This document shows positions 30,142-35,569 of a DNA stretch of 64,000 nt, piece after piece (the first letter of the stretch is position 1; the number at the start of each line of letters is the position of its first letter). This DNA is from Pseudoalteromonas arctica A 37-1-2 (GTDB taxonomy: Bacteria; Pseudomonadota; Gammaproteobacteria; Enterobacterales; Alteromonadaceae). Location: positions 3,410,001-3,474,000 of the forward strand of contig NZ_CP011025.1 of NCBI RefSeq assembly GCF_000238395.3, written 5' to 3'. The position numbers were made by a program, and so were the translations under genes. The notes below the pieces were generated by a model. It made no database searches. It was not told the origin of the DNA and saw only the letters and a program-made list of their open reading frames with translations.

Positions 30142-31005
30142 TTAGCTCATAGCGCTTTGTAACTTTTTCATCGCTGTTTTTTCAAGCTGGCGAACACGTT
30201 CAGCAGATACACTGTACTTTTGTGCAAGCTCTTGAAGAGTCGCCTTATCATCAGACAACCAACGTGCGCTAACAATATCTTGTGAACGCTCGTCTAGTGT
30301 TTTAAGTGCGCTAAATAAACGAGTATGCGCTTGCTCTTTCCACTGCTCTTGTTCAACGTCGTCAGCTAAATCAGCTGCGCCATCTGTTAAATATTGTACT
30401 GGAGAGTACGTGCTTGTTGGTGCGTCGTCGTTATCGTCGCCCGTTAGGTCAAAGCCCATGTCTTGGCCGCTCATGCGCGATTCCATTTCACGTACTTCTT
30501 TTTCACTCACACCTAGCTCGCTAGCAACGGTACTAACCTCAGCTTGATTAAACCAACCTAAACGCTTTTTATTTTTACGAAGATTAAAAAACAATTTACG
30601 TTGCGCTTTAGTGGTTGCAACTTTAACTATGCGCCAATTTTTAAGCACAAACTCGTGAATTTCGGCTTTAATCCAATGCACTGCAAACGATACTAAACGC
30701 ACACCCACAGTAGGGTCGAAACGCTTAACCGCTTTCATCAGGCCTATATTACCTTCTTGAATAAGGTCAGCTTGTGGTAAGCCGTATCCCGAGTAGCCTT
30801 TAGCAATATGCGCTACAAAGCGTAAATGCGACATAATGAGTTGCTTGGCAGCACTAAGATCGCCTTCTTCCTGAAGTTTTTTAGCAAGTTCTTGCTCTTG
30901 TTCAACTTTAAGCATAGGAATAGTGCTTACCGCTTGAAGGTAACCGTCCATGCTTGCGCTTTGTTGTCCGACTGTAAGTGCCATTGCGTATAAATCTTTA
31001 CTCAT
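30142..31005 (-). CDS. rpoH: Heat-shock sigma factor sigma-32
   Basis: Directs RNA polymerase to heat-shock promoters. The 287-aa protein (E. coli 284) has sigma-70 regions 2 ([35 protein letters not shown]), 3 and 4 ([14 protein letters not shown]). It also carries the RpoH box QRKLFFNLR that marks this sub-family and binds chaperone/FtsH control factors. ATG 31005 has a GAGGTG site. A perfect CIRCE lies 33 nt upstream, which suggests repression by HrcA. Confidence 0.96.
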
Positions 31006-31038
31006 TTTTCACCTCGGTGATAAACATTTGAAACTATC

Positions 31039-31065
31039 TTAGCACTCTTTCTTTAAGAGTGCTAA
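31039..31065. promoter_or_regulatory. CIRCE element (HrcA operator) upstream of rpoH
   Basis: TTAGCACTC, nine bases, GAGTGCTAA: an exact match to the CIRCE consensus bound by HrcA. It starts about 6 nt downstream of a candidate -10 box, so bound HrcA would cover the likely transcription start. HrcA itself is not encoded in this window. Confidence 0.88.
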
Positions 31066-31070
31066 CCCCA

Positions 31071-31099
31071 ATTTAAAACTTTTTTAAAGTATAAATCAA
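31071..31099 (-). promoter_or_regulatory. Candidate sigma-70 promoter of rpoH
   Basis: Minus strand: TTGATT (31094-31099), 17 nt, TTAAAT (31071-31076). The predicted start falls at the edge of the CIRCE element. Confidence 0.5.
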
Positions 31100-31138
31100 G
31101 CAGTTTTTAGTATGTGTTTAGTCTACTACAAGCGACTG

Positions 31139-31319: not shown

Positions 31320-32306
31320 TTATACTTTATCGGGTTCTATTTCTTTAATATATCGATTTACAGAAAGGTACGAGCCTACAAATCCTAAGCTTGTTGCAAG
31401 TAACACTAAAAAGCCGAGCTCATTAAGCGATAATCCAATTAACGAGAAGCTTGTTTGATACACACCCGCTACACTGCTCACAGCGCTTGAAAGCCACCAC
31501 ATCATTAGTCCTACGCATATAAAGGCAAATAAACCACCTATTACACCATACCAAATACCGGTCCACAAAAATGGGGCATGTATAAAGGTGTTAGTTGCGC
31601 CGACTAGCTTCATTACTTGTATTTCTTCTTTTTTATCCATGATCGACAAACGGATGGTGTTACCAATAATAAGCGTCACTGAGGTAAGCAGTAATAATGC
31701 GATGGTTATTACACTTTCTTTCAGTAAATCTAGTAATGCATTTAAACGCTCTAGCCACGCTATATCGAGCTTACCAAAATCAACTTCACGTTCACTTTCT
31801 AATTTAGTTAGCAGTACTTTAGCGGCATTTGGGTGTCTGTGACGTTTTGTAGGAGTAACAAGTACCACATCAGGTAATGGGTTTTTATCTAAGTACTCTA
31901 AAGCTTGCCCAAAGCCAGATACGTCTTTAAATTCAGTTAATGCTTTTTGCTTTGATATAAATTCAACGCTTTCCACTTCTGGATAAAGTGCTAAACGCTT
32001 TACTAATGTTTGCGTTTCTTGCTCGTTCATACTTTCTTTTACAAACAACGATATTTCACTCGCTTCTTCAAAACCACTACTTACTTGCTGGACGTTTTTA
32101 ACAACGAGATAAAGTGTTGCAGGTAACGTTAGGCTCAAACCAAGTACAGCAATAGTCATCATAGATGCAAGCGGCGTACGCCACATTTCACCTAAGCTAT
32201 GAACACCTTGGCGAAAAATATTAATAATGAAAAAATAACCGCCAGCTAATACTGATTTTTTTTGCTTGTCGTTACTATTTTGACGACTTTTAAAAAGTAA
32301 ACTCAT
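31320..32306 (-). CDS. ftsX: Cell-division membrane protein FtsX
   Basis: Transmembrane half of the FtsEX complex that controls EnvC/amidase activity at the septum. The 328-aa protein has a cytoplasmic N-terminus, a first transmembrane helix (about 45-70), a periplasmic domain (about 75-200) and three C-terminal transmembrane helices, as in the family. Its start overlaps the ftsE stop by 4 nt. Confidence 0.95.
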   Translation of the reverse strand: MSLLFKSRQNSNDKQKKSVLAGGYFFIINIFRQGVHSLGEMWRTPLASMMTIAVLGLSLTLPATLYLVVKNVQQVSSGFEEASEISLFVKESMNEQETQTLVKRLALYPEVESVEFISKQKALTEFKDVSGFGQALEYLDKNPLPDVVLVTPTKRHRHPNAAKVLLTKLESEREVDFGKLDIAWLERLNALLDLLKESVITIALLLLTSVTLIIGNTIRLSIMDKKEEIQVMKLVGATNTFIHAPFLWTGIWYGVIGGLFAFICVGLMMWWLSSAVSSVAGVYQTSFSLIGLSLNELGFLVLLATSLGFVGSYLSVNRYIKEIEPDKV

Positions 32307-32980
32307 AGTGCTCCCTCAGCGAGCGGATCTTGAAGCATGCGGCCATCTTTTAAGGTTAGACTGCGGTACTTCATACGTGCAACCAAACCTAAGTCATGCG
32401 TCGCTATAAGAACAGTGGTGCCGTGTTTATTAAAGTCCTCAAACAGCTTTAGGATTTCCATTGAAAGCTCAGGGTCTAGGTTACCTGTAGGCTCATCGGC
32501 TAACAGAATTGGCGGGGAATTTACGATTGCTCTGGCAATACCAACACGTTGCTGCTCGCCTCCAGAGAGCATAGACGGATGACATTTTATTTTGTCTATC
32601 AGGCCTACTTTATCAAGCGCACCATGAACACGTTTAGCTATTTGCTTATGGTGAGTACCCTCAATAATAAGAGGCAGTGCCACGTTATCAAAAATAGTAT
32701 AGCGCTCTAGTAAACGGTGGTTTTGAAAAATAATACCTATATCACGGCGAGCATAAGGAATTTGACGCGAGTTTACTTTATTTAAATCAACACCGTTGAT
32801 AAATACACTGCCTGCCGATGGACGTTCCATTAAGCTAATTAACTTAAGCAACGTACTTTTACCCGCACCACTGTGGCCGGTTAAAAAGGCAAGTTCACCC
32901 GGTTTAACATGAAAATTAACTTTTTCGAGGGCGCGGTGCCCTCCAGGATAAGTCTTACTTACTTGCTGAAAATTTATCAT
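32303..32980 (-). CDS. ftsE: Cell-division ATP-binding protein FtsE
   Basis: ABC-type ATPase partner of FtsX. The 225-aa protein (E. coli 222) has Walker A (GHSGAGKST), the Q loop, signature LSGGEQQR and Walker B (ILLADEPTGN). I chose ATG 32980 (MINFQQVSKTYPGG), which aligns with family starts; a TTG at 33001 would add seven residues. It follows ftsY by about 90 nt, in the classical ftsY-ftsE-ftsX order. Confidence 0.95.
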   Translation of the reverse strand: MINFQQVSKTYPGGHRALEKVNFHVKPGELAFLTGHSGAGKSTLLKLISLMERPSAGSVFINGVDLNKVNSRQIPYARRDIGIIFQNHRLLERYTIFDNVALPLIIEGTHHKQIAKRVHGALDKVGLIDKIKCHPSMLSGGEQQRVGIARAIVNSPPILLADEPTGNLDPELSMEILKLFEDFNKHGTTVLIATHDLGLVARMKYRSLTLKDGRMLQDPLAEGAL

Positions 32981-33067
32981 CTTTTTATTATGCCAATTCA
33001 ATTAGTTTACTAATAAAATTGGTATTCCTCGCAATTAAAAAGGGAGCAAGCTCCCTCTTTTGGTAAA

Positions 33068-35362
33068 TTAAACGTCGTCCTCATCTTGGCTAAATAACGC
33101 ATCAATAAAGTCATCGCTTTTAAAAGCGCGTAAATCATCAATACCTTCACCAACACCAATGTAACGAATTGGAATATTAAACTTATCTGCAACCGCAAAA
33201 ATAACACCACCCTTTGCAGTTCCATCAAGTTTTGAAAGCGTAATACCAGTTAAGCCAACGCATTGATTAAATAAGTTCACTTGGCTAATTGCATTTTGAC
33301 CTGTGCCAGCATCAATGGTTAACATCACTTCGTGCGGCGCATCAGGATCAATTTTTTTCATAACACGAGCTATTTTTTCAAGCTCTTGCATTAAGTTATC
33401 TTTATTTTGCAAGCGACCCGCTGTATCTGCAATTAACACATCTATATTACGTGCTTTTGCAGCTTGGAATGCATCAAAAACAACCGATGCACTATCTGCA
33501 CCCGTATGCTGTGCAATAACAGGAATGCTGTTACGTTCACCCCAAACCTGAAGTTGCTCAACAGCAGCCGCTCTAAACGTATCGCCAGCAGCCAGCATAA
33601 CCGACTTACCTTCGCTTTGAAATTGCTTAGCCATCTTACCAATAGTCGTTGTTTTACCAACGCCATTTACGCCCACCATTAAAATAACAAATGGCTTTTT
33701 ATCTTTGGTAATTACTAAAGGCTGTTCAGCCGTTTTTAGCATCGCCGCCATTTCTTGTTTCATTAACTCATAAAGCGCATCACCATCTTTTAACTGCTTA
33801 CGGTTTGCAGCATCAGTTAAGCTATCAATCAACTTCATGGTGGTATCAACGCCTAAATCGGCGGTGAGCAGCTGTGTTTCAAGATCTTCAAATAATTCGT
33901 CATCTATTTTTTTACCACTAAAAATAGATGCAAAACCAGAACCTATATTAACGCGAGTTTTTAACAAGCCCTTTTTAAGACGAGAGAAAAACCCTTCTTT
34001 TTTCGGCTTTTCTGCTTTTTTAGCTTCTTCAATTGCAAGCTCTGCTGTTATACGTTCTTGTTCTAAACGCTCGTTTTCTGCTTTTCCCGCTGCAATGCGC
34101 TCTTGCTCTAAACGCTCATTTTCTAATTTTTCAGCAGCAATGCGCTCTTGATCTAAACGTTCATTTTCTGCTTTTTCAGCCGCAATACGTTCTTGTTCTA
34201 AACGTTCATTTTCAACTTTGTCAGCCGCAATGCGCTCTTGCTCTAAAAGCTCGTTTTTTGCTTTCTCAGCCGCAATGCGCTCTTGCTCTAAGCGCTCGTT
34301 CTGAGCTTTTTCAGCAGCAATACGTTCTTGCTCTAAACGCTCATTTTCTACTTTTTCAGCAGTAATGCGTTCTTGCTCTAAACGCTCACTCTGAGTTTTT
34401 TCAGCCGCAATACGTTCTTGTTCTAAGCGCTCGCTTTCTGCTTTATCAGCAGCAATGCGCTCCTGCTCTAAACGCATTTGCGCTTCTTGTTCTGCTAAAC
34501 GTTTTGCTTGATCTTGTCTTTGTGCTTCAGCATCTGCTTGTTCTTTTGCTAATAACTCAGCATTCGCTTGCTCTATTGCAAGCTTTTCAGCCTTTACAGC
34601 TTCATCCTTTTTTTCAAGGCGTATTTGATCTAGTCGCTCAGTCTCTACTTTTTCTGCAGCCAATCGCTCTTGCTCTAATTGCATCTGCGTTTCTTGATCG
34701 GCTAAACGTTGTGCATATTCTTGTCTTTGCGCTTCTGCATCAGCTTGTTGTTTTGCAAGTAATTCAGCATTGGCCTGCTCAATTGCAATCTTTTCTGCGT
34801 TTTCAGCACGCTCCTGCTCTAAGCGCTCTGTTTCGGCCTCTGCTTTTAAACGTTCAGCTTCAGCTTGCTCCTGTGCTAGCTTTTCTTGCTCTAAACGTTT
34901 AGCTTCAATTTGTTCAGCAGCAATACGCTCCTGCTCTAAGCGCTCTGTTTCGGCCTCTGCTTTTAAACGTTCAGCTTCAGCTTGCTCCTGTGCTAGCGTT
35001 TCTTGCTCTAAACGTTTAGCTTCAATTTGTTCAGCAGCAATACGCTCCTGCTCTAAGCGCTCTGTTTCGGCTTCTGCTTTTAAACATTCAGCTTCAGCTT
35101 GCTCCTGTGCTAGCTTTTCTTGCTCTAAACGTTTAGCTTCAATTTGTTCAGCAGCAATACGCTCCTGCTCTAAGCGCTCTGCTTCGGCTTCTGCTTGTAA
35201 GCGTTCAGTTTCAGCCTGCTGCGCAAGCTTTTCTTGCTCTAGCTTCTGCGCTTCTTCTTGCGCTAATGCTTGTTGTTTATCAGCGGCTGCTTTTTGCTCT
35301 GCTTCTTTTTTATCTGACTTGCCAAAACCGAGCCACGACATGAATTTACTTTTTTTTGTCAT
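33068..35362 (-). CDS. ftsY: Signal recognition particle receptor FtsY with a very long repeat-rich A domain
   Basis: GTPase that docks SRP-ribosome complexes at the membrane. The NG domain is ordinary: about residues 455-764, with P-loop GVNGVGKTTT, DTAGR and TLSKLDGTAKGG. The N-terminal A domain is about 450 residues, against roughly 200 in E. coli. It is made of Glu/Arg/Ala/Lys/Gln-rich repeats: three 39-residue units plus a partial (about 61-185) and ten 15-residue units of the LEQERIAAEKAENER type (298-447). ATG 35362 gives MTKKSKFMSWLGFGK, which resembles the E. coli N-terminus. The repeats predict long charged helices. It heads ftsY-ftsE-ftsX and is divergent from rsmD. Confidence 0.94.
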   Translation of the reverse strand: MTKKSKFMSWLGFGKSDKKEAEQKAAADKQQALAQEEAQKLEQEKLAQQAETERLQAEAEAERLEQERIAAEQIEAKRLEQEKLAQEQAEAECLKAEAETERLEQERIAAEQIEAKRLEQETLAQEQAEAERLKAEAETERLEQERIAAEQIEAKRLEQEKLAQEQAEAERLKAEAETERLEQERAENAEKIAIEQANAELLAKQQADAEAQRQEYAQRLADQETQMQLEQERLAAEKVETERLDQIRLEKKDEAVKAEKLAIEQANAELLAKEQADAEAQRQDQAKRLAEQEAQMRLEQERIAADKAESERLEQERIAAEKTQSERLEQERITAEKVENERLEQERIAAEKAQNERLEQERIAAEKAKNELLEQERIAADKVENERLEQERIAAEKAENERLDQERIAAEKLENERLEQERIAAGKAENERLEQERITAELAIEEAKKAEKPKKEGFFSRLKKGLLKTRVNIGSGFASIFSGKKIDDELFEDLETQLLTADLGVDTTMKLIDSLTDAANRKQLKDGDALYELMKQEMAAMLKTAEQPLVITKDKKPFVILMVGVNGVGKTTTIGKMAKQFQSEGKSVMLAAGDTFRAAAVEQLQVWGERNSIPVIAQHTGADSASVVFDAFQAAKARNIDVLIADTAGRLQNKDNLMQELEKIARVMKKIDPDAPHEVMLTIDAGTGQNAISQVNLFNQCVGLTGITLSKLDGTAKGGVIFAVADKFNIPIRYIGVGEGIDDLRAFKSDDFIDALFSQDEDDV
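34022..34471 (-). repeat. In-frame 45-bp tandem repeats in ftsY, ten units
   Basis: Ten consecutive 45-bp units encode variants of LEQERIAAEKAENER. Units differ mostly at the positions after AAE/AAD. Length is a multiple of three, so copy-number changes keep the frame. Confidence 0.9.
34808..35182 (-). repeat. In-frame 117-bp tandem repeats in ftsY, 3.2 units
   Basis: Three near-identical 117-bp units (39 codons) plus a partial fourth, beginning with (A/T)ERLEQERIAAEQIEAKRL. The high nucleotide identity suggests recent duplication. Confidence 0.88.
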
Positions 35363-35569
35363 ACTTGCTAATAACCACTTATAAAAATCTGATAAACTAA
35401 AATTTGAAATAGCTTGGCAATGCCCAGCAATAGTTGCTAATAAATACAACCATTCAAAACGTAAGTGTTCAATAGTAACACTTTTAATACGGTTGAAAAA
35501 TGAAGCTACACGTAATCACCCATAATATTATCTGAGCTAGATACCATATACCATTTTTTAGTGAGCTAA

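Follow-up and report, generated by a model that had tools for sequence, protein, structure and literature searches.

What is the operator of one heat-shock circuit doing at the gene that commands another? Repression through HrcA/CIRCE and activation through sigma-32 are generally treated as two heat-shock circuits that replace each other or run in parallel; classical HrcA/CIRCE control, as in Bacillus subtilis and others, acts on the groESL and dnaK operons, and the E. coli model of rpoH regulation stresses translation and protein stability. In the DNA analysed here (64,000 nucleotides of the Pseudoalteromonas arctica A 37-1-2 genome, hereafter the window), an original prediction made from the sequence alone had placed a perfect CIRCE at the promoter of rpoH. 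The comparisons presented herein suggest that HrcA uses this palindrome as a functional DNA operator at rpoH, a reading to which we assign a probability of about 0.86. Repression of rpoH by HrcA we infer, along with HrcA binding, its dependence on GroEL and its release by heat.

An exact CIRCE precedes rpoH

The minus strand of the window encodes the heat-shock sigma factor sigma-32 as a protein of 287 amino acids (rpoH, 30142..31005), which matches TIGR02392 at 417.9 bits (cut-off 323.1) and whose nearest relatives among the matches listed are the RpoH proteins of Pseudoalteromonas sp. FUC4 (99.7% identity) and P. fuliginea (98.3%). A Shine-Dalgarno region read from the sequence, GAGGTGAAAA (31006..31015, minus strand), lies ahead of the rpoH ATG and is also present in Pseudoalteromonas-group loci. 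Using a pattern search of the window, we located the inverted repeat TTAGCACTC-N9-GAGTGCTAA, a CIRCE operator and predicted HrcA-binding site, with no mismatches at 31039..31065 of the same strand, its end 33 nt from the ATG, which confirms the exact palindrome that had been proposed. It is the sole match in the window when up to three mismatches are allowed. A chance occurrence was ruled out by the average of 0.04 matches in shuffled sequence and by conservation in relatives: in 11 Pseudoalteromonas-group loci (six genomes, including this one, and five further records) the arms are identical, while the N9 spacer averages 66%, and in the rpoH sites of the family the arms are again invariant (27 of 28 sites, with one change in the other) and the N9 spacer and flanks variable.

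Extending the search to the whole genome (4.72 Mb) at up to three mismatches returned 12 CIRCE-like places, comprising the exact site at rpoH, one lone three-mismatch place and ten identical three-mismatch copies; simple arithmetic gives about 1.6 chance matches of the three-mismatch type in 4.7 Mb. The ten identical sequences, distributed over two contigs (G000:C1 and C2, e.g. C1:36782-36808), are probably copies of an rRNA leader, the one that was looked at (L002) lying ~170 nt upstream of a 16S rRNA gene. At this threshold only the rpoH CIRCE rises above chance genome-wide, and the check for CIRCE at other promoters that accompanied the original prediction accordingly returned none beyond chance.

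The genome encodes a divergent HrcA

Searches with PF01628 and TIGR00331 identified an hrcA gene in the same genome (positions 1186-2151 of the fetched locus L005), between a divergent nadK and a downstream grpE. These matches rule out the absence of hrcA, whose presence had been named as a first check on the predicted operator. In the family, nadK, hrcA and grpE are all on the fetched locus in 27/27 hrcA-bearing genomes.

The hrcA ORF spans 321 codons, and its likely start gives a protein of 314 amino acids. PF01628, the HrcA C-terminal domain, matches at 40.2 and 39.2 bits (cut-off 22.2) and TIGR00331 at 119 bits (E 3e-34), under its equivalog cut-off of 197.2, and the protein is filed under the Pfam HrcA family, not the NCBIfam equivalog. 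The same is true of its genus, in which six of six HrcAs fall below the TIGR00331 cut-off with the lowest scores of the family draw, the other 21 HrcAs of that draw scoring above it. In an alignment of 30 sequences, this HrcA shares 18-25% identity with HrcAs from outside its genus. Of the 20 columns that are invariant in all 30, 19 fall within residues 6-68, the winged helix, where the residues ATxRN and HTSAGRxP are retained; PF03444 remained sub-threshold (16.7 versus 21 bits). Using phmmer, residues 2-83 match 1STZ, an HrcA structure, with an E value of 2.8e-13. When an AF2 model of the protein (pLDDT 83.4, pTM 0.66) was compared with the PDB, 1STZ again ranked first (E 7.7e-19), with a TM of 0.52 and an rmsd of 9.6 over the whole chain, which means that the domain packing is not closely matched.

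CIRCE at rpoH accompanies hrcA in the family

Conservation of the palindrome in sister species was the other test attached to the original prediction, and it holds. In a draw of 147 family genomes from 49 genera, 29 contain a CIRCE with at most one mismatch, which in 28 is found at rpoH. We identified hrcA in 27 genomes, representing nine genera, and all 27 are among these 28, such that the rpoH CIRCE is present in 27/27 genomes with hrcA versus 1/120 without. The lone exception (G103) is an assembly that is 95% complete. We also hand-picked 30 family genomes that lack hrcA, taking one for each genus code; upstream of rpoH their best CIRCE matches have 5-9 mismatches, and none of the 30 has a site. 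Mapped onto the RpoH tree, the hrcA label changes only 2-3 times within the family, so the co-occurrence at this level represents few independent events, and we place no weight on Fisher values calculated from it.

Some family members exhibit variations on this arrangement. One genome (G115, locus L014) has an exact CIRCE away from rpoH and no detected hrcA. All 28 genomes have one CIRCE-type place each except G106 (L015), in which a second copy with one mismatch lies 6 bases from the first; tandem CIRCE-like palindromes at rpoH were seen in L015, L016, L018 and L033.

The association extends across the class

Across the class, here the Gammaproteobacteria including the former betas, we searched for an exact CIRCE followed within a set distance range by an RpoH motif, a strict pattern that under-counts CIRCE at rpoH. 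It was found in 91 of 370 genomes and in 70 of 273 genera. A further scan gave at least 120 matches, and the named carriers among those listed include Pseudoalteromonas, Rheinheimera, Alishewanella, Alcanivorax, Nitrosomonas, Dyella, Thioalkalivibrio and Aromatoleum. An hrcA gene was detected in 279 of the 370 genomes (E <= 0.001; 271 over the curated cut-off), including 91/91 of those with the strict pattern. We then compared two sets of 30 genomes, hand-picked with one per genus or family code and thus non-random. Among 30 genomes with hrcA and no strict match, rpoH could be located in 28, of which 26 have a CIRCE with at most three mismatches upstream and two have none; G176 has a second rpoH copy that lacks CIRCE. 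Among 30 genomes without hrcA, rpoH was likewise located in 28, and three of these have a CIRCE at rpoH at the same threshold. Those three (L359, L363 and L376, with 0-3 mismatches) may reflect a recent loss of hrcA or an assembly gap. Taken at face value, the hand-picked sample suggests that CIRCE at rpoH is near-universal in the class where hrcA exists, at about 90%, calculated as (91 + 26/30 x 188)/279.

rpoH is apparently the sole target of HrcA in the family

At groES (28/28 family genomes) and at hrcA (27/27), the best CIRCE match has 7-9 mismatches, which is the random level and rules out groESL or hrcA-grpE as further CIRCE-bearing operons in the family. Both genes have candidate promoters of another kind. 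A sigma-32-like promoter scoring at least 10/12 precedes groES in 27/28 family genomes (shuffles 5%) and hrcA in 14/27 (shuffles 2%), the remaining 13 hrcA genes falling under 10/12; in P. arctica the sequence ahead of hrcA is CTTGAA-N14-CCCGAT, with a score of 11/12. On this evidence rpoH is apparently the sole target of HrcA in this genome and its hrcA-bearing family relatives, and the circuit is probably a loop and not just a series, because hrcA has a sigma-32-like promoter. The proposal that HrcA stands over the sigma-32 gene and joins the two circuits in series thus gains from the exact site, the presence of hrcA and their co-occurrence, and requires amendment: rpoH appears to be the only target, and a loop goes beyond a series.

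The situation differs elsewhere in the class. Of 30 hand-picked class genomes outside the family with an rpoH CIRCE, 28 also have a groES CIRCE (at most two mismatches) and 11 have an hrcA CIRCE (at most three mismatches); of the two genomes without a groES CIRCE, one fails because its contig ends there. As the groES CIRCE is common in the class and absent from the family, the family apparently lost the CIRCE of its chaperone operons and kept the one at rpoH.

These data also bear on whether HrcA governs a wider regulon through degenerate sites, of which that at rpoH would merely be the best. The divergence of this HrcA and the prevalence of groES CIRCE elsewhere in the class would both fit such a regulon, but we consider it unlikely: the site at rpoH is perfect, which argues that specificity has not visibly drifted, the rest of the genome holds no site beyond chance at up to three mismatches, and the family groES and hrcA regions are at the random level.

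CIRCE overlies a probably composite promoter

The -35/-10 pair that had been proposed ahead of CIRCE was found as a candidate sigma-70 promoter, TTGATT (31099-31094)-N17-TTAAAT (31076-31071), occupying 31071..31099 of the minus strand just upstream of the palindrome. If used, it would put +1 at the CIRCE edge. A CTTG-type -35 is present at the same place (±1 nt) in 11/11 Pseudoalteromonas-group loci, and the corresponding -10 consists only of A and T in 10/11, being poor in L101; in the window this -10, TTAAAT, is a weak match to TATAAT (4/6).

A second candidate, an extended -10, is formed by the CIRCE right arm and three further bases (TGCTAAGAT, 31036..31044, minus strand). It would pair with TTAGCA of the left arm (31065-31060) as its -35, at a spacing of 18, and would put +1 a few bases beyond CIRCE. 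The motif TGnTAnnnT is found at the CIRCE right arm in 24/28 family rpoH sites. It also occurs between -60 and -25 of the rpoH start in 25/30 family relatives that lack hrcA (shuffles 7%), and in 22 of those 25 it lies at -35 to -42, the position that a CIRCE right arm would occupy. For the class we used 137 sites, that is, 150 loci (L061-L210) minus six from Pseudoalteromonas or this genome, three near contig ends and four near-copies. The trinucleotide N[AC]T that completes the extended -10, TGCTAANNT, directly follows CIRCE in 128/137 of these rpoH sites (12% expected) and in 1/28 groES sites. The extended -10 is thus conserved more widely than the TTGATT/TTAAAT pair, both candidates recur in relatives, and CIRCE overlaps or abuts both. 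We suggest that the rpoH promoter is probably composite here and that, given the extended -10 in the window, the pair named in the original prediction may not be the main promoter. The simplest reading is of an old sigma-70 promoter with an operator laid over its -10, in which the promoter outlives the operator.

In class relatives, envelope stress may provide a further input. The -10 consensus of the envelope-stress sigma factor RpoE is TCTRA-like. In the accessible part of PMC8103513, the RpoE -35 consensus is given as GGAACTT, and in 108/137 class sites the best RpoE-like site has this -35 at 16 nt (±1) before the rpoH CIRCE, such that its -10 takes in the last bases of the left arm together with the first bases of the spacer. 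RpoE-like scores of at least 10/12 were obtained at 102/137 class sites (shuffles mean 3.6, largest 9), and all 28 groES CIRCEs checked lack an RpoE-like -35 at that offset. L064, L068, L078 and L094 (Alcanivorax) are examples among the class loci, and the RpoE-like box is also present at rpoH in Dyella (L107 and L121). The spacing was first noticed in a site profile, which makes the counts there post hoc, and it was checked by shuffles, by other offsets and in 29 rpoH loci fetched later, in 18 of which the top-scoring RpoE-like site again falls at -17 to -15 when counted from the best match to CIRCE. The initial profile and the comparison with groES and other offsets were made on 144 and 143 sites, with near-copies and two Pseudoalteromonas loci still included. 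In genomes without hrcA, RpoE-like scores of at least 10 occur in 6/28 of the class, near the shuffle level (20%), and RpoE-like sites in 13/30 of the family, modestly over it.

The RpoE-like element is not uniform. An RpoE-like promoter at -16 was sought in the Pseudoalteromonas loci and none was found, the upstream CTTG pair occurring there instead. In three other family genera (g18, g40 and g43; L006-L013 and L019-L022), 10/12 loci have the RpoE-like box at -10, with a GGAACTT-like -35 at that offset and a -10 element that lies in the N9 spacer of CIRCE and mostly reads TCAAA. In these genera the RpoE-like promoter has apparently shifted by 6 nt.

The promoter anatomy also informs the possibility that CIRCE is part of the rpoH transcript and works chiefly as a hairpin in the leader RNA, affecting stability or serving as a thermometer, and not as a DNA operator. 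The upstream promoter, if used, would put the palindrome at the 5' end of the mRNA, and many class sites vary as TTGGCACTC, which would still allow G-U pairing in RNA. Nevertheless, we regard such a hairpin as quite improbable. Paired changes that preserve the stem should be acceptable in an RNA, but the arms are fixed in the family, and this fixity does not stem from selection by the search pattern because every hrcA-bearing genome was caught by the search. The presence of the palindrome tracks hrcA, most of it would be untranscribed with the extended -10 in use, and no Rfam family reaches its gathering score at rpoH. The two Rfam matches considered as candidates for a known RNA element in the leader were both far under that score.

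Least probable of all, and very much so, is that the palindrome is a functionless relic beside a decaying HrcA gene, for although no HrcAs of the family draw score lower than those of the genus, which fall short of the equivalog cut-off, the arms are identical in the 11 genus-group loci against 66% in the spacer, the HrcA winged-helix residues are kept, and family members without hrcA are also without the palindrome (0/30).

A proposed circuit for sigma-32 control

In other bacteria, an HrcA dimer binds CIRCE, GroEL aids its activity and heat abolishes it. If the palindrome acts as an operator in the same manner, an HrcA dimer on CIRCE would overlap the rpoH promoter or promoters at normal temperature and limit rpoH transcription, with free GroEL probably keeping HrcA active as it does elsewhere. 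Upon heat shock, HrcA would be inactivated, either by heat directly or by unfolded proteins occupying GroEL, and the resulting increase in rpoH transcription would allow sigma-32 to turn on groESL, hrcA-grpE and the rest of its regulon. The ensuing rise in GroEL and HrcA would then shut rpoH down again. If true, the only job of this repressor would be to hold down the sigma-32 gene, two circuits would be joined in series with the HrcA sensor at the top of the regulon, and a negative loop would operate at the level of rpoH transcription.

For the class as a whole, we lean towards a broader model, with some reserve. HrcA and sigma-32 would form one chain, in which CIRCE is found at rpoH nearly wherever hrcA exists and overlies a composite promoter, whose RpoE-type -10 would lie across the left arm and the spacer and whose sigma-70 extended -10 would lie in the right arm. 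Input to rpoH from envelope stress and from housekeeping transcription would thus both be gated by HrcA, and E. coli would represent what remained after the loss of hrcA and CIRCE. In the family, HrcA would have been stripped of groESL and kept solely for rpoH, and in many members sigma-32 would in turn control hrcA. At most class sites CIRCE and the RpoE-like promoter overlap, which suggests a way in which envelope and cytoplasmic stress could be combined at one gene.

Relationship to known systems

Compared with the classical system, the operator and the repressor family are the same, and the target differs, being the sigma-32 gene here and chaperone operons there. Permina and Gelfand (2003; cited in PMC545781) and Ueki and Lovley (2007) may already describe an rpoH CIRCE in some of these groups, so the class-wide part may have precedents. 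CIRCE at rpoH is in any case not new in kind. According to the available text of PMC545781, a CIRCE was predicted at rpoH of Geobacter sulfurreducens in 2004, as an exact match at -51 in a genome that also contains hrcA. Both genomes thus combine an rpoH CIRCE with hrcA; however, G. sulfurreducens has CIRCE at groESL and hrcA-grpE-dnaKJ as well (the same text), whereas here it is found at rpoH only. Within the portions of the open literature on HrcA, CIRCE and rpoH that could be consulted, there is no report of an rpoH CIRCE for Pseudoalteromonas or class-wide, and CIRCE at rpoH appears in PMC545781 and not in the corresponding portions of PMC10490939, PMC8103513 and PMC10696704. Four aspects seem to be new: rpoH as the sole target, the loop, the extent across the class and the composite nature of the promoter. 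The interpretation in the original prediction is largely supported, with hrcA present and the palindrome conserved, though its central idea had a precedent.

The E. coli rpoH gene has an RpoE-dependent promoter, P3 (PMC8103513, in the part available), an input that resembles the RpoE-like -35 lying mostly 16 nt before CIRCE in the class relatives. In contrast to the present genome, E. coli returned no PF01628 match in our control search, and the Pseudoalteromonas loci differ in turn from E. coli in having no RpoE-like box at -16.

Genes upstream of rpoH

Upstream of rpoH, the window contains ftsX-like, ftsE-like and ftsY-like genes (31320-35449), named from their ORF translations. The FtsY-like ORF (33068-35449) encodes 793 amino acids and has a very long, repetitive and charged N-terminal part, with repeats like ENERLEQERIAAEKA.
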